NCBI GenBank assembly: GCA_947497315.1
Contig: CANMFX010000002.1
Coordinates: forward strand, 744,001 to 808,000
Direction: 5' to 3'
Source of the DNA: an uncultured Sphingomonadaceae bacterium
GTDB lineage: Bacteria > Pseudomonadota > Alphaproteobacteria > Sphingomonadales > Sphingomonadaceae
DNA: 64,000 nt
The notes below the pieces were generated by a model. The model was not told the DNA's origin. It worked only from the letters and a program-made list of their open reading frames with translations, and searched no databases. Positions 53,575 through 59,234 of this stretch are shown in pieces. A program made the position numbers and the translations under genes. Each line of letters opens with the position of its first letter. The first letter of the stretch is position 1.

Positions 53575-54111
53575 ATGCCAAAAGCAAAACGATCCGATAA
53601 CTGGGGTTTCCCCCGCTGGGGTAGCTATGAAAGCTCGCGTGAAGCAGAGCAGGTGAAGATTTGCGACCGGCATGGGTGTAACGACGCGGGCAATTGTCCC
53701 GCTCCTAAATCACCCAATAGTCCGGACCGCTGGTATTTCTGTGAGAAACACGCTGCAGAATATAATCGTGGCTGGGATTATTTCGAAGGCCTCGACAAGG
53801 AAGAGCGGGCGAAACGCGAAGCGGATGAGCAACGCGATGCTAATGCCTACCAGGAAGCGAAACATTATAGCTGGATGGGATCCGGCGATGGCAGCCGCTC
53901 GCGCGACGAGATGACGGCGCTGGAGATATTCGATCTGACGCCTGATGTTGATTTTGAGACGGTAAAAAAGGCATGGCGTGCGATGGCAAAGGAATATCAT
54001 CCTGATGTCAATCCCGGTGATGAAGAGGCTGCCAAGAAGTTTCAGGCGGCGCAGGCGGCCTTTGATGTGCTTAAAATCGCTGAAGAGCGTCGGGTTTGGA
54101 AGCCGGTTTAA
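53575..54111 (+). CDS. J-domain protein with N-terminal Cys/His cluster
   Basis: A 178-residue DnaJ-type cochaperone. The J domain is at the C-terminus (about residues 115-175), with the HPD motif in AKEYHPDVNPG. The N-terminal part holds C-D-R-H-G-C, a third Cys, and F-C-E-K-H, which may bind zinc. The central part is charged and Tyr-rich. This domain order is seen in alphaproteobacterial J proteins without the Gly/Phe and zinc-ribbon parts of DnaJ. Converges with sufE with a 4-base overlap. Confidence 0.88.
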   Translation: MPKAKRSDNWGFPRWGSYESSREAEQVKICDRHGCNDAGNCPAPKSPNSPDRWYFCEKHAAEYNRGWDYFEGLDKEERAKREADEQRDANAYQEAKHYSWMGSGDGSRSRDEMTALEIFDLTPDVDFETVKKAWRAMAKEYHPDVNPGDEEAAKKFQAAQAAFDVLKIAEERRVWKPV

Positions 54112-54518
54112 GCTTTTTGGTACCGAGTGGCCGTTTCTTCAATAAGCGCAATCATGTTCGGAATACCTTGGGTCCGATTGGAGCTGAGCTGGTTTTTCAA
54201 ATCAAACGGCGCAAGCATTTCCGCAATATTGGTTTTCAAGACGGCATCAATCGGTTGATCCTGAACAGTTTCGAGCACGAGCGCGATGATACCTTTGGTA
54301 ATGGCTGCATTGCTGTCGGCAAGAAAATGCAGGCGCCCATCGTCCAACTGTGTCGGATAAACCCAAACTGAAGCAGAACATCCGCGTACCAATGTCGCGT
54401 CGGTTTTCAGGGCATCGGGCATGGCTTCCAGCTCTTTGCCCAAATCGATCAGAAGCCGGTATCGGTCGTCAGCTTCCAGGAATTCATATTCTTCTACAAG
54501 ATCGTCAAATTTGCTCAT
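54108..54518 (-). CDS. sufE: SufE cysteine desulfurase sulfur acceptor
   Basis: SufE, 136 residues, accepts sulfur from SufS in Fe-S cluster assembly. Acceptor Cys47 lies in LVRGCSASVWVYP. The rest (ADSNAAITKGIIALVLETVQDQPIDAVL) is typical. No suf operon partners are near. It lies 54 bases after the last psp-operon paralogue and may be transcribed with it. Confidence 0.93.
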   Translation of the reverse strand: MSKFDDLVEEYEFLEADDRYRLLIDLGKELEAMPDALKTDATLVRGCSASVWVYPTQLDDGRLHFLADSNAAITKGIIALVLETVQDQPIDAVLKTNIAEMLAPFDLKNQLSSNRTQGIPNMIALIEETATRYQKA

Positions 54519-54572: not shown

Positions 54573-54803
54573 TTAAAGCTCCACTCCGGCAGCAATCGCT
54601 TCCAGTTTGCGGATGCGTTCCTTCAGGTCCGCAACCTCTATTCGCGATGTAGCACTGGGGGGATTTTCCTCTCGCCTTTGTTCCAATTCCTTGGATTTGA
54701 GGTCAATCCAGTCCCTCCACCCACGCAGAGCGATAAGGGAGACCGCCGTTAGTCCGATCAGGGTAAACGCAGCAATCATCAGGTAAAAACTGGGTTCTGG
54801 CAT
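54573..54803 (-). CDS. Membrane-anchored coiled-coil protein, psp-linked paralogue 6
   Basis: A 76-residue protein with one N-terminal membrane segment (FYLMIAAFTLIGLTAVSLIAL) and a charged helical tail ending ADLKERIRKLEAIAAGVEL. The tail retains the LKERxxxLExIA pattern of the other paralogues, although it lacks the final EIExLR. It is the last of six in the psp cluster, 42 bases after paralogue 5. Confidence 0.7.
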   Translation of the reverse strand: MPEPSFYLMIAAFTLIGLTAVSLIALRGWRDWIDLKSKELEQRREENPPSATSRIEVADLKERIRKLEAIAAGVEL

Positions 54804-54845
54804 GATGCTATCCTTCTTCTTTTCCTGCTTCTTTGAGGGACCGAT

Positions 54846-55106
54846 CTATTGGTCCCGCAATTTCTCTATTTCATTTTCCAGTTCGCGTGCGCCGCGATCA
54901 TCGGTGGCTATTTTCTCAAGTACTGCCACACGTTCCTTGAGATATTTAACCTCTTCACGAAGCCGTCCGGCATCGGGGTCAACCATAGTGACAGGGTTAC
55001 CATCTTCATCCGACGCGATGCCATTTTTGGCCTGAATACGGGTACTGACGACCTTTCCGATGGTGATCACGATGATGATGGCAACAACCATTTCAAACGG
55101 GTTCAT
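54846..55106 (-). CDS. Membrane-anchored coiled-coil protein, psp-linked paralogue 5
   Basis: An 86-residue protein: N-terminal segment MVVAIIIVITIGKVV, then a charged region with EVKYLKERVAVLEKIATD and ELENEIEKLRDQ at the end. Nearly the same C-terminal 30 residues as paralogue 4, so they look like a tandem duplication. No function beyond the family pattern is known. Confidence 0.75.
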   Translation of the reverse strand: MNPFEMVVAIIIVITIGKVVSTRIQAKNGIASDEDGNPVTMVDPDAGRLREEVKYLKERVAVLEKIATDDRGARELENEIEKLRDQ

Positions 55107-55135
55107 TTATTCTCTTCCCTCCAATTGCTTCTTGC

Positions 55136-55405
55136 TTAGCTATCTCTCAGCTTCGCTATTTCACTTTCCAATTCCCGTGCGCCGCGTTCATCGGTTACAA
55201 TTTTTTCCAACGTTGCCACGCGCTCTTTCAGATATTTCATATCTTCCTGCATGCGCCGACCATCTTCACTTTCCGGTAGCCGCTCGCCAAGGAGCATCAG
55301 CTCTTTTTGCTTTTCCAGCATCTTGCTTTGATGACGGGTCCAGATGGCCAGGCCGCCGAGCAAAAATGGTGCGAGGGGTATCAATACCCATAGTTCATCG
55401 AACAT
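55136..55405 (-). CDS. Membrane-anchored coiled-coil protein, psp-linked paralogue 4
   Basis: An 89-residue protein: N-terminal membrane helix (LWVLIPLAPFLLGGLAIW) followed by YLKERVATLEKIVTD and ELESEIAKLRDS. Starts at the base where paralogue 3 stops. C-terminal region is almost identical to paralogue 5. Confidence 0.75.
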   Translation of the reverse strand: MFDELWVLIPLAPFLLGGLAIWTRHQSKMLEKQKELMLLGERLPESEDGRRMQEDMKYLKERVATLEKIVTDERGARELESEIAKLRDS

Positions 55406-55665
55406 CAGTTCAGCTCCTTCACTTCTGGCTCATCGCGCAGACTTTCAATTTGTCCGGCAACATCAAAACCCTTGTCCGTAACAATTCGTTCCAACACGCG
55501 CACCCGCTGTTCCAGTTGTTTGTTACTGACTGCATATTGAGCAGCTTTTTCGGCGGATATCTCGGACTGCATCTTCAATATCTTCTGCTGATGACTGGTC
55601 CAAATTGCAAAAACTCCAACGCCGATGCCGGCAAATGGGATCAACAGGGCTAGATATTCAATCAT
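55405..55665 (-). CDS. Membrane-anchored coiled-coil protein, psp-linked paralogue 3
   Basis: An 86-residue protein: membrane helix LALLIPFAGIGVGVFAIW and tail QLEQRVRVLERIVTD, then AGQIESLRDEPEV. The region just after the membrane segment (HQQKILKMQSEI) resembles that of paralogue 4 (HQSKMLEKQKEL). Confidence 0.75.
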   Translation of the reverse strand: MIEYLALLIPFAGIGVGVFAIWTSHQQKILKMQSEISAEKAAQYAVSNKQLEQRVRVLERIVTDKGFDVAGQIESLRDEPEVKELN

Positions 55666-55675
55666 ATTGATCTCC

Positions 55676-55996
55676 TTAGTTTTTCGGGGCGCGCAAGGCT
55701 TCGATTTCGTTTGTCAAACGATGACTATCATCGGTCACAATCCGCTCAACATTGGCAAGCCGGTCTTTCATCGATCCGATCTCGGCGCGCAGTTCTGCAT
55801 TTTCTTGTGTCAGCAGTTTGACGCGTTCTACCGCCTCGTTGTCCGTTTTCGGATAAACCGCTTTGCCCCACTGATTCTCAAGCGGATAGCCGTTTTTGAT
55901 CCGCATCCAGGTTGTTGCCACCCATCCCAGTGTTACGACTGCACAAGCAAATCCGATGGGCCACAATATAGAGGGGTTAGCTAAAATGCTTTCCAT
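55676..55996 (-). CDS. Membrane-anchored coiled-coil protein, psp-linked paralogue 2
   Basis: A 106-residue protein: membrane helix ILWPIGFACAVVTLGWVATTW, then RIKNGYPLENQWG, shared in form with paralogue 1 (RAKHGYPLEDEWG). The tail has SMKDRLANVERIVTD and NEIEALRAPKN. Starts with a 1-base overlap with the previous gene's stop. Confidence 0.75.
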   Translation of the reverse strand: MESILANPSILWPIGFACAVVTLGWVATTWMRIKNGYPLENQWGKAVYPKTDNEAVERVKLLTQENAELRAEIGSMKDRLANVERIVTDDSHRLTNEIEALRAPKN

Positions 55997-56295
55997 TATC
56001 CCTTCTCCCGCAGCGCTTCGATTTCATCTGCTGTTCGTTTGGCGGGATCAGTCGCGATCCGCTCCAGAACTGCAAGACGTTCCTGCAAGCGATCGATCTT
56101 GCCAACCAGTTCTTCATTTTCCGCAGAGAGCAGCTCAATTTTGCGATCGGCCTTTGGGTCATCCTTAGCGGTTGTCCCGCCCCACTCATCTTCCAGCGGA
56201 TAGCCATGTTTGGCCCGGATCCAATTGTTGATTATATAGCCAGCATAGCAAACGGCGATAATGGCGATAACAAATCCCGGTCCACCCCAATTCAT
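55996..56295 (-). CDS. Membrane-anchored coiled-coil protein, psp-linked paralogue 1
   Basis: A 99-residue protein: membrane helix GFVIAIIAVCYAGYIINNW, the RAKHGYPLEDEWG motif, a helical stretch, LQERLAVLERIATD and ADEIEALREKG at the C-terminus. It is 27 bases after pspC. Confidence 0.75.
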   Translation of the reverse strand: MNWGGPGFVIAIIAVCYAGYIINNWIRAKHGYPLEDEWGGTTAKDDPKADRKIELLSAENEELVGKIDRLQERLAVLERIATDPAKRTADEIEALREKG

Positions 56296-56322
56296 AATCA
56301 GTCTCCCTAAATTCTGTGTGGC

Positions 56323-56703
56323 TTAGCGCAGCTTTTCAATTTCATTCGAAAGTGCGCGGTTGTTACTGGTGTAGTATAATTCCATATCGGCAAGACGGCG
56401 GTCGATCTCACGAAATCGTGATTTGACATCGCGAGCGGTGCGGCGCGGGGATTGACGGACGCCTTGCCAGAATTCCCGATCCTCTCTGTCACCATAAAGT
56501 TCCATCGGTTTGGGATCAGCCGATTTTGCGGCGATCCAATAAGCAACCAAAGTCCATGGAAAGGCGAAAGTCACGGTAGCTATCACAGCGGCCAACCTGA
56601 CCCACATAACGTTTATTCCGGTATAGTCGGAAATTCCGGCGCATACTCCGCTCCATTTGGCGCGCTGTTTATCAAGATAAAATTTTGTGCGGATCGAAGC
56701 CAT
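56323..56703 (-). CDS. pspC: PspC-domain envelope stress protein
   Basis: PspC, 126 residues. The N-terminal PspC domain is clear: FYLDKQRAKWSGVCAGISDYTGINVMWVRLAAVIATVTFAFPWTLVAYWIAA. The C-terminal part ends with DRRLADMELYYTSNNRALSNEIEKLR, the same EIExLR ending as the paralogues. PspC and PspB in enterobacteria relieve PspA inhibition of PspF. It lies between pspB and the first paralogue. Confidence 0.9.
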   Translation of the reverse strand: MASIRTKFYLDKQRAKWSGVCAGISDYTGINVMWVRLAAVIATVTFAFPWTLVAYWIAAKSADPKPMELYGDREDREFWQGVRQSPRRTARDVKSRFREIDRRLADMELYYTSNNRALSNEIEKLR

Positions 56704-56705
56704 GA

Positions 56706-57008
56706 TTAGCGCCTTTCTTTTTTCAAGAGATTATCGAAATTTTCGAGTGTCGGTTTGGGTTCATTGCTTGCACCCGGTAATGCTGACTGCCGCCAGTCTG
56801 GATTGTCTGCTGCCATGATCCGTTCGATTGTCTCCATGCGTTCGTCCAATCGGCGTGCCATGATGTGCAAATCGTCGAGCAGTTGCTCGTCTTCATTGGT
56901 GATGGTTGCGGCCGTTTTCCATTTTGTAACATAGTGGAAAATGATCCACGGGAACGCGACAAACAAAGTGACAATCGCAAAAAACGGGATAAGATCGTTC
57001 GAGTCCAT
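56706..57008 (-). CDS. pspB: PspB-like envelope stress protein
   Basis: PspB, 100 residues: N-terminal membrane helix IPFFAIVTLFVAFPWIIFHYV then a leucine-zipper-like segment with LDDLHIMARRLDERMETIERIMAAD. The pattern matches the PspB layout. Its start overlaps the pspA stop by one base. The motif RMETIERIMAAD resembles the paralogues' RxxxLERIVTD. Confidence 0.88.
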   Translation of the reverse strand: MDSNDLIPFFAIVTLFVAFPWIIFHYVTKWKTAATITNEDEQLLDDLHIMARRLDERMETIERIMAADNPDWRQSALPGASNEPKPTLENFDNLLKKERR

Positions 57009-57691
57009 TATTTGTCACCTTTCTGGTCTGACTTCTTCATGGCCGCCTTCATAGCTTCCAATTCATCATCAACTTTGTCGCTGCTTTCCAGCGCAGCAAT
57101 CTGATTTTCTAGTGTCGCCGGCTCACCGCCCATCGTTAGCGCATCGGCACGGCCTTCGGCCTGGTCCACCTGACGTTCGAGATATTCAAATTTTGAAAAT
57201 GCATCATGGACTTTGTCGCCATTATACATTTCGCGAATTTTATAACGGTTCTCGGCGCTTTCGAGGCGGTTAACCAGACTGCTCTGGCGAGACCTTGCTT
57301 CCTGCAACTTCTTTTGCAGTTTGGCGATATCGCCTTCTGAAGCGCGCAGGGCATCGTCCAGTACCTGAATTTCAACGGTAAGCTGTTCTGCCATGTCAGC
57401 CGCTTTGCGTTTTTCCATCAACGCCGCCTTGGCGAGATCTTCGCGGTCCTTGGATAGCGCCAGTTGTGCCTTTTCGTTCCAGTCTTCGGTCAGCTGGTTG
57501 AGCTTATCAATATGCCGACGCATTTCCTTTTGGTCGGCAATCGTGCGCGCTGCAGAAGCGCGGACTTCAACAAGGGTTTCTTCCATTTCCAGGATGATCA
57601 TGCGGATCAGTTTTGATGGATCTTCCGCCTTATCGAGCATGTCCGTGACATTGGCGGCGATGATATCGCGCGTTCTTGAAAAAATACCCAT
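57008..57691 (-). CDS. pspA: Phage shock protein A
   Basis: PspA, 227 residues from ATG 57691 (MGIFSRTRDIIAANVTDMLDKAEDP). An all-helical ESCRT-III-like membrane protein with the N-terminal amphipathic helix and long coiled coil, including IRMIILEMEETLVEVRASAARTIAD. It protects the inner membrane and, in enterobacteria, inhibits PspF. It is 149 bases after a small exported peptide gene, with a strong hairpin between. Confidence 0.95.
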   Translation of the reverse strand: MGIFSRTRDIIAANVTDMLDKAEDPSKLIRMIILEMEETLVEVRASAARTIADQKEMRRHIDKLNQLTEDWNEKAQLALSKDREDLAKAALMEKRKAADMAEQLTVEIQVLDDALRASEGDIAKLQKKLQEARSRQSSLVNRLESAENRYKIREMYNGDKVHDAFSKFEYLERQVDQAEGRADALTMGGEPATLENQIAALESSDKVDDELEAMKAAMKKSDQKGDK

Positions 57692-57840: not shown

Positions 57841-58023
57841 TCACGCCTTATAGCTGACAGTTGGGGAAATTGTACCATCTTCAGAGATGGTCGGGCCTTG
57901 TGCTTCGGCAGGGCCCACGGCGCTGATCAAAATCGTCAGGCTAAACAGCAACACGGAAATGATGGCAGAAACGTCGGTTCTGCTCAAATTCATTGATTTG
58001 CCTGTTTTCGTAGCTGCTGACAT
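57841..58023 (-). CDS. Small exported or membrane peptide, first gene of the psp transcript
   Basis: A 60-residue protein with a perfect GGAGGA site 5 bases before the ATG at 58023. The central hydrophobic stretch AIISVLLFSLTILISAVGPAEA is a signal or membrane segment, followed by a short Thr/Ser/Pro tail. No family was recognised. Its start lies about 50 bases downstream of the sigma-54 promoter, so it is the first product of the stress-induced message. Confidence 0.65.
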   Translation of the reverse strand: MSAATKTGKSMNLSRTDVSAIISVLLFSLTILISAVGPAEAQGPTISEDGTISPTVSYKA

Positions 58024-58190: not shown

Positions 58191-59234
58191 ATGGAGCGCG
58201 AAAATCAGTTTGTTGGGGAGTCTGGAGCTTTCCTTGATGCAGTCGAAAAAGCCAGTCGGGCGGCCACTCTGGACCGTCCCGTACTTGTTATCGGAGAGCG
58301 CGGTACGGGTAAAGAGCTCATCGCTGAACGTCTCCATCGATTAAGCATGCGTTGGGATGGCCCTTTAGTTACATTAAACTGTGCGGCCATGCCCGAAACG
58401 TTGATCGAGGCTGAATTGTTCGGCCACGAAGCCGGTGCCTTTACGGGTGCGACTAAGAATAGAGTAGGGCGCTTTGAAGAAGCTGATGGCGGCACCTTGT
58501 TTCTGGATGAATTGGGAACATTGTCTTCCGCGGCGCAGGAGCGATTGCTCCGGGCGGTTGAATATGGCGAGATTACCAGAATAGGATCATCGCGACCACA
58601 AAAGGTGGATGTGCGGATCGTGGCGGCTACCAATGCCGACCTGCCGAAGATGGCGGACGAAGGGAAGTTCCGGGCGGATCTGCTTGATCGCCTGTCATTT
58701 GAAGTCGTGACGCTGCCGCCGCTACGCTATCGCGAGGGGGATGTTCCGGTTTTGGCCGACTATTTCGGGCGGCGCATGGCGGCTGAACTGGAATGGGAAC
58801 AATGGCCCGGCTTCGGTCAATTGGCATCCGAAGCGCTGGCACGCCATCAATGGCCCGGTAACGTCCGGGAGTTGCGTAACGTGATAGAACGCGCCGTTTA
58901 TCAATGGGGTGATTATACGCGCGCTGTCGATCATATCGTCTTTGATCCGTTTGAATCACCATGGAAGCCGAAAGAAATGCCTTCTCGGCAATCGCAGCCT
59001 GTTGAAACCCAAAACATACCGGAAAAAGCGGAACCTGCTCTAGCAGCACCGCCTGCGGAACCAGAGTTTGCGGCTGTTGATGATATGAAAGAAGCGGTTG
59101 AAGCGTTTGAAAAGCGCATCCTTGAAGCCGCATTGGCCAAATCCCGCTACAACCAGCGGCAGACTGCTAAAGCGCTCAATTTGACCTATGATCAGCTCCG
59201 GCACTCACTGAAACGCCACGATTTACTGGGATAG
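58191..59234 (+). CDS. pspF: Sigma-54-dependent activator PspF
   Basis: PspF, 347 residues from ATG 58191. It begins directly with the AAA+ domain (FVGESGAFLDAVEKASRAA), lacking a receiver or GAF domain, as in enterobacterial PspF. Walker A GERGTGKELIAERLH, the sigma-54 contact GAFTGA, Walker B GGTLFLDELGTL, and a C-terminal Fis-like HTH (QTAKALNLTYDQLRHSLKRHDLL) are present. The linker between (about 265-310) is Pro/Glu/Ala-rich. Divergent from the psp operon. Confidence 0.95.
   Translation: MERENQFVGESGAFLDAVEKASRAATLDRPVLVIGERGTGKELIAERLHRLSMRWDGPLVTLNCAAMPETLIEAELFGHEAGAFTGATKNRVGRFEEADGGTLFLDELGTLSSAAQERLLRAVEYGEITRIGSSRPQKVDVRIVAATNADLPKMADEGKFRADLLDRLSFEVVTLPPLRYREGDVPVLADYFGRRMAAELEWEQWPGFGQLASEALARHQWPGNVRELRNVIERAVYQWGDYTRAVDHIVFDPFESPWKPKEMPSRQSQPVETQNIPEKAEPALAAPPAEPEFAAVDDMKEAVEAFEKRILEAALAKSRYNQRQTAKALNLTYDQLRHSLKRHDLLG

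Follow-up and report, generated by a model that had tools for sequence, protein, structure and literature searches.

A putative family of PspB-like membrane proteins with PspC-like tails in the psp operon of Sphingomonadaceae

The window analysed here, a stretch of 64,000 nucleotides from an uncultured member of the Sphingomonadaceae (contig CANMFX010000002.1), carries a phage shock (psp) operon in which pspA, pspB and pspC are followed by six small genes, named here X1 to X6. Sequence comparisons indicate that X1 to X5 form one protein family, in which a PspB-like membrane helix and coil is joined to a PspC-like C-terminal tail, and that X6 is a related or parallel type weakly linked to them. 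The block is conserved in the psp operon throughout the bacterial family meant below, f1 in our genome set, which organism names suggest to be the Sphingomonadaceae. On the best reading of these data, the X proteins would act as spare, membrane-anchored copies of the PspB/PspC tails and would recruit or hold PspA. The way in which PspB and PspC detect membrane trouble and pass PspA on is an open question, which has been studied mostly in a few gammaproteobacteria.

Relationships of the X proteins to one another, to PspB and to PspC

The six genes fill the interval from pspC to sufE and are encoded on the minus strand, with spacings from pspC onward of 27, −1, 10, −1, 29 and 42 bases (Table 1). 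The initial annotation had described six small genes in the same direction after pspABC, with gaps of at most 42 bases and two 1-base overlaps, one N-terminal membrane segment in each product, and shared C-terminal endings in most. The open reading frames and their spacings confirmed this arrangement, and the two other statements also held. One N-terminal hydrophobic segment is present in each of X1 to X6. Among the nonredundant family sets (rows of up to 125 amino acids), a second candidate membrane segment was detected in 0/24 X1, 0/30 X2, 0/29 X3, 0/42 X5 and 1/26 X6 sequences. Lysine and arginine were more abundant on the C-terminal than on the N-terminal side of the membrane helix in 23/24, 26/30, 29/29, 42/42 and 26/26 of these sequences, respectively, and in 43/44 PspB sequences; this enrichment suggests that the X proteins are oriented C-in. 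In the predicted model of X2, with a mean predicted local distance difference test (pLDDT) score of 73.7, a membrane helix at residues 8-35 is connected through a linker of low confidence to a second helix at 52-102. The ending R-x-x-x-(L/V)-E-(R/K)-I-(V/A)-T-D was found in five of the six proteins, X6 being the one without it; five of the six likewise carry E-I-x-x-L-R or a sequence close to it.

The profiles compared with hhalign comprised 28 nonredundant sequences for X1, 31 for X2, 36 for X3, 42 for X5, 26 for X6, 44 for PspB and 45 for the PspC tails; some of the open reading frames carry unrelated N-terminal extensions (early start codon). The X1, X2, X3 and X5 profiles matched one another pairwise with probabilities of 98.2 to 99.8%. 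The controls gave 0.9 to 8.8% for AtpF against the X profiles, 8.1 to 71.3% for FtsB, with the top value for X3, and at most 43.5% for reversed profiles. These values indicate that the likeness among X1, X2, X3 and X5 exceeds that of chance coiled coils. Short low-complexity helices and the FtsB-X3 value would favour the view that unrelated single-pass coiled-coil proteins merely look alike, but the distance between 98.2–99.8% and the reversed profiles, together with the conservation of the groups across genera under purifying selection, makes it highly improbable. The profile matches between paralogues are significant, less clearly for X6, and bear out the earlier view that the shared endings are not accidental.

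X6 matched X5 at 88.8%, X3 at 86.5%, and X1 and X2 at 48%, to be read against the X3-FtsB control given above. Its values against PspB (1.1%) and against the PspC tail were about 1%. X4 had been proposed to be a recent duplicate of X5 (the genes at 55136 and 54846). This is not borne out, as the two proteins are alike in their C-terminal halves only: the C half of X4 shares 30 of 41 positions with X5 (score 153, other comparisons at most 61), while its N half shares 17 of 36 with X3 (score 82, other comparisons at most 33). With the split point set by eye, X4 appears to be a chimera joining an X3-like front to an X5-like back.

Over the membrane helix and the coil, the PspB profile matched X1 at 95.5%, X3 at 93.8%, X5 at 91.6% and X2 at 80.6%. 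A PspB profile built from 19 loci devoid of X genes gave 93.7% with X1, 95.2% with X3, 93.5% with X5 and 66.9% with X2. Furthermore, eight of 11 X3-group proteins matched the NCBIfam PspB model (best E value 2.1e-8), 11 of 14 X5-group proteins matched TIGR02976 (best 3.6e-6; the window's own X5 is not among them) and five of these 14 matched PF06667 (best 1.6e-5), all of these being E values displayed without cut-offs. Because X-free PspB profiles still match the X proteins and the curated outside models agree, we regard common descent of X1, X2, X3 and X5 with PspB over the helix and coil as firm on the grounds of sequence.

The comparisons describe X1 to X5 as a sister family of PspB and not as PspB copies, since none passes the curated PspB cut-off and since they occupy a separate side of the tree. 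In the Pfam and NCBIfam search of the window proteins, none of X1 to X6 scored above that cut-off; matches below it were seen for X3 and X4 in Pfam (E 0.11–0.13) and for X4 (0.012) and X5 (0.72) in NCBIfam. When four X5-type proteins were searched by themselves, NCBIfam yielded no match at E≤0.001. The PDB sequence search returned nothing usable, the best match being to a designed coiled coil (0.006). A tree built from 91 proteins (rows of up to 125 amino acids) placed 10 PspB on one side (100/100, branch 2.74) and X1, X2, X3, X5 and the orphans opposite; X2 (100/99), X3 (99/99) and X1 (86/76) each formed a single group and X5 was intermixed with orphan X5-like genes, in a tree that is drawn from a short alignment with few columns, has many open forks and an unsettled bootstrap, and is rooted for drawing only. 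The genome itself holds a single PF06667 match at E≤0.001, which is pspB, and the five matches of the X5 profile at E≤1e-4 correspond to X1 to X5 of the psp operon.

Simple duplication of PspB is disfavoured by the tree separation and the failure at the curated cut-offs, but some X relatives reach 1e-5 to 1e-8 against PspB models, and two or three PF06667 matches are listed in 18 of 296 genomes, one of which was identified. In that genome (G058, another family of the order), a second PspB-like gene lies 3′ of pspC (L082:3160-3384, reverse-complement coordinates). The X proteins share with PspB (PF06667, TIGR02976) the N-terminal membrane helix, the predicted C-in topology, the cytoplasmic coil and the operon; they differ in the PspC-like end (T-D ... 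E-I-x-x-L-R), carried by X1 to X5 and found in few PspB. Thus the initial description of a PspB-like adaptor family stands for the PspB homology and the conserved set, but not for strict PspB paralogy, which the cut-offs and the tree contradict, nor with full weight for the weakly linked X6.

The profile of PspC tails from all sampled loci matched X2 at 95.7%, X5 at 95.6%, X1 at 94.1% and X3 at 89.9%. The window's X2 matched the PspC tail of TIGR02978 (Table 1), eight of 11 X3-group proteins matched this NCBIfam PspC model (best 1.7e-4), and six of 14 X5-group proteins matched the PspC model with a best value of 0.0056. The elements in which the X proteins resemble the PspC tail (TIGR02978 positions 71-121) are R-L-x-x-x-E ... 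T-S/D ... L-x-x-E-I-x-x-L-R. Unlike PspC, the X proteins have neither the PspC domain nor the PspC membrane part, and no X has a PF04024 (PspC domain) match among the Pfam matches listed at E≤1. All 115 of the 115 loci having two or more X genes encode a PspC with an EIxxLR-type tail, for which kinship alone could account. Among the PspC tails of the 19 X-free loci, two fit a loose EIxxLR, one EFRxL and 16 neither; those of five single-X loci carry EIxxLR (two) or EFRxL (three, from family f8 of the order).

Distribution, selection and natural variants

We read 141 loci, namely the window, 60 reached through the best PspB matches listed and 80 reached through the X2/X1 profile. The 60 were chosen among the best-scoring PspB matches listed, and genera with weaker PspB matches contribute no locus. 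In all 38 of the 38 same-family loci fetched with PspB, X genes follow pspC: six in 7 loci, five in 12, four in 12, three in 5 and one in 2. sufE was present in the stretch in 36 of these 38. The 22 PspB-fetched loci from other families comprise three with one X5 (all f8) and 19 without X. With 30 short loci (about 3.2 kb) set aside, the 117 loci having both pspC and sufE contained seven X genes in one case, six in 22, five in 51, four in 20, three in 8, one in 2 and none in 13, counts that are biased upward because X2-found loci are included.

Across 296 genomes of the order, with family tallies counted by hand, the X5 profile found a match in 211 of the 213 genomes of the family and in 56 of the 83 from elsewhere in the order, once in 47 of the latter and twice in 9. 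The X6 profile matched 204 of 213 family genomes and one of 83 others (E 7.1e-5). A class-wide search gave matches in 10 of 385 genomes, and five of these belong to the family of the window. The matches outside it were PspB-like genes within their own psp operons in G561 and G527 (by eye), an orphan X5-like pair in G499, and partial matches in G353 and G506. The G499 pair (L259, outside the order) consists of two X5-like genes next to each other, with dut and coaBC (identified by eye) as neighbours. In family f8, an orphan X5-like gene stands right after an RpoD-like gene (by eye) in five genomes (L250, L251, L255, L257, L258), and three f8 genomes also hold an X5 copy inside psp. The absence of the block from other psp loci, which the initial annotation had named as a finding that would speak against it, was not seen; the block is present family-wide.

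The X genes are under purifying selection. Compared with eight relatives, X1 to X6 gave ratios of nonsynonymous to synonymous substitution (dN/dS) of 0.00 to 0.17 in the orthologue comparisons with an estimable dS, many of these dS values exceeding 1. One value of 0.27, obtained for X3 with L032, does not compare orthologues, since L032 has no X3.

Several genomes depart from the common arrangement. In genus g13, X6 occupies a second operon, immediately behind a PspC-domain gene in all 22 of the 22 genomes, with a second pspA upstream in 20 of them (L243, L244, L263-L284). PspA2 and PspC2 were both over the Pfam cut-off in the one g13 genome scanned, and PspC2 of L244 also ends in an EIxxLR tail. 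G146 and G186 have the order pspA-pspC-X3-X3-X5, without PspB. In G053, pspA and an 88-amino-acid, tail-less PspC (L309:3122-3388) are followed at once by X3 and X5; this genome gave no PspB match, and its pspF lies on a different contig, where no neighbouring psp gene was seen. One family genome, G266, has no PspA, PspB, X5 or X6 match and no PspF over the cut-off, and is thus the one case of co-loss. A second PspC-domain gene adjoining pspC was seen in L054, L055, L064, L075, L078 and L089.

Candidate roles in the Psp response

With moderate confidence, we take X1 to X5 to be single-pass membrane proteins that carry a spare PspB/PspC signalling tail in the cytoplasm and that were added to the psp operon of the Sphingomonadaceae, which usually retains three to seven specialised versions, and X6 to be an allied adaptor. 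Because the X proteins appear to combine a PspB-like anchor with a PspC-like tail, a function as extra membrane-anchored partners in PspA exchange is most likely. In Yersinia, the C-terminal domain of PspC binds PspA in the ON state, freeing PspF (PMC5596341, in the part considered here). The X proteins would extend this known switch, in which PspA is held in the ON state by the PspC C-terminal domain. Their block would be controlled by PspF and sigma-54, and the proteins would be inserted N-out/C-in in the inner membrane, where they would pair with PspB, PspC or other X proteins via the helix and coil. The tail would bind PspA or the PspC tail, and the cell would then hold several PspA docking sites with different membrane parts. 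A tuning of PspA binding by the X proteins is plausible. The sphingomonad membrane-repair switch probably has several plug-in adaptors and not one. A further step is possible but tentative, namely that the tail that binds PspA has become independent of PspC and has multiplied, so that sensing and recruitment are spread over interchangeable units; in such a switch PspC may lose its own tail (G053) and PspB may be dispensable (G053, G146, G186). The preferred reading is supported by gene order, family-wide conservation, PspB homology, the likeness to the PspC tail, purifying selection, the one co-loss and the re-association of X6 with a second pspA and pspC.

Several results weigh against this reading. 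The matches of X6 to X5 and X3 are not far over the X3-FtsB control, and its values with PspB and the PspC tail are negligible. PspC tails from the 19 X-free loci matched the X proteins more weakly (X2 88.3%, X5 86.0%, X1 68.6%, X3 43.7%), and for this reason the likeness of the X tail to the PspC tail appears partly lineage-specific; the strong form of the proposal, that X tails are the general PspC tail, is weakened by the same values. PspB and the PspC tail did not match each other (1.2%). The fold search with X2 returned nothing usable, its best E value being 4.6, and the model of PspC was poor, with a mean pLDDT of 63.4. The full X set is not required everywhere, because X6 is the sole X gene kept with pspABC in G269 and two small genomes retain a single X5. 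Finally, X5-like genes of other families lie away from psp at 14 of 14 sites inspected, and because of this location the ancestral role may be broader than Psp.

These orphan genes bear on the idea of small membrane proteins independent of Psp, in which an X5-like gene with an older role, for instance in cell division or in maintenance of the envelope, is simply carried along by the psp promoter. Such genes occur outside psp in several other families of the order, as after the RpoD-like gene in the five f8 loci, and a few members match FtsL or DivIC models weakly. We consider the idea improbable in view of the X6 re-association with a second pspA-pspC pair, the common ending of PspC and X tails in the 115 loci mentioned above (where kinship is possible), and the genome that is without the entire set together.

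A role at the site of damage was also considered, in which the X proteins would, outside the PspF switch, serve mainly as membrane tethers or as effectors giving stability to the inner membrane or to PspA polymers, like E. coli PspG and PspD. The X copy number is high, as for structural parts, and X3 and X5 stay beside pspA in G053, a genome that has neither PspB nor the PspC tail and carries pspF on a different contig. Against this, the X tail is similar to the domain with which PspC binds PspA in regulation (PMC5596341). An effector role, which is compatible with the spare-tail proposal, seems rather unlikely. PspD and PspG, the enterobacterial Psp effectors, are likewise small proteins of the Psp regulon, and PspG interacts with PspC (PMC3068692, in the part considered). 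With the HMMER filters on, no Pfam match to PspD or PspG was listed at E≤1 for any X.

The earlier premise of a single PspB and a single PspC in known Psp systems goes too far, as the portions considered of Ravi et al. 2024 (PMC11237479) report PspB duplicates in the psp operon (example AOL22920.1) and PspC fused to a divergent PspB, and those of a 2022 survey (PMC9239133) report multiple PspC. These PspB duplicates resemble the present case in that more than one PspB-like gene stands in a psp operon. They differ in that the portions seen offer one phrase and one accession and do not describe the X family, its PspC-like tail, its spread or its variants. Besides Ravi et al., no paper found treats the X block by its title or abstract, and none of those on Sphingomonas and phage shock addresses this operon by title or abstract. 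In Zymomonas, pspA, pspB and pspC rise on xylose or ethanol (PMC8645129, PMC3495753, as far as the parts considered tell). The analysis suggests a candidate function for genes that recur in more than 200 sampled genomes and are called 'hypothetical protein' in at least one RefSeq record, that of Sphingomonas parapaucimobilis. Several natural versions of the tail within one bacterial family offer ready comparisons for its function, to which the genomes without PspB or without the PspC tail add.

The locus in the window

Features around the block are collected in Table 1. Among the relatives found that bear a strain name, Sphingorhabdus sp. EL138 is the nearest (99% over X2). sufE marks the end of the block and is probably not itself part of it.

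Table 1. Features of the psp locus in window coordinates; the genes from pspA to sufE are on the minus strand and pspF on the opposite one.
Feature	Coordinates	Strand	Basis or remark
pspF, sigma-54 activator, divergent	58191..59234	+	TIGR02974 over cut-off, E 8.6e-148 (G000:C2:802212-803219); Sigma54_activat
Predicted sigma-54 promoter element ACTGGCACGGCTCCTGCAA	58075..58093	-	400 bases upstream of pspA; 17/18 on simple consensus score
Small hydrophobic open reading frame, 60 aa, between promoter element and pspA	57841..58023	-	Open reading frame
pspA	57008..57691	-	PF04012 5.1e-38; TIGR02977 over cut-off
pspB	56706..57008	-	PF06667 3.9e-25; TIGR02976 over cut-off
pspC, C-terminal end ...LADMELYYTSNNRALSNEIEKLR	56323..56703	-	PF04024 3e-13; TIGR02978 3.1e-34, over cut-off
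X1, 99 aa, predicted bitopic tail protein, HGYPLEDEWGG linker	55996..56295	-	Orthologous group 86/76; hhalign PspB 95.5%, PspC tail 94.1%
X2, 106 aa, predicted bitopic tail protein, NGYPLExxWG linker	55676..55996	-	Orthologous group 100/99; TIGR02978 PspC tail 3.8e-4
X3, 86 aa, predicted bitopic tail protein, AEKAAQYA coil	55405..55665	-	Orthologous group 99/99; hhalign PspB 93.8%
X4, 89 aa, putative chimera (X3-like N half, X5-like C half)	55136..55405	-	Half-by-half comparison
X5, 86 aa, predicted bitopic tail protein, NPFEMVV start	54846..55106	-	X5 profile; widest spread of all types in the order
X6, 76 aa, predicted bitopic protein, C-terminal end RIEVADLKERIRKLEAIAAGVEL	54573..54803	-	X6 profile; second-operon context
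sufE, downstream neighbour of the block, 54-base gap	54108..54518	-	PF02657 7.6e-34

The best sigma-54-like scores of 138 loci averaged 17.0, versus 14.3 for letter shuffles, and the observed score was attained by 5% of the shuffles of X-carrying loci. A cut at 15/18 was passed by 117 of 119 X-carrying loci, but this cut is near the shuffle mean, so we relied on the mean score.

Open reading frames with an '..AVGPA..' stretch that resemble the one at 57841-58023 were seen by eye, as an observation free of any significance test, at the same place in a number of relatives. A 48-amino-acid hypothetical protein is annotated at the matching position in S. parapaucimobilis. Directly upstream of pspA, a protein with a TonB-like C-terminal domain (named by eye) is encoded in L036, L037, L060 and L061.

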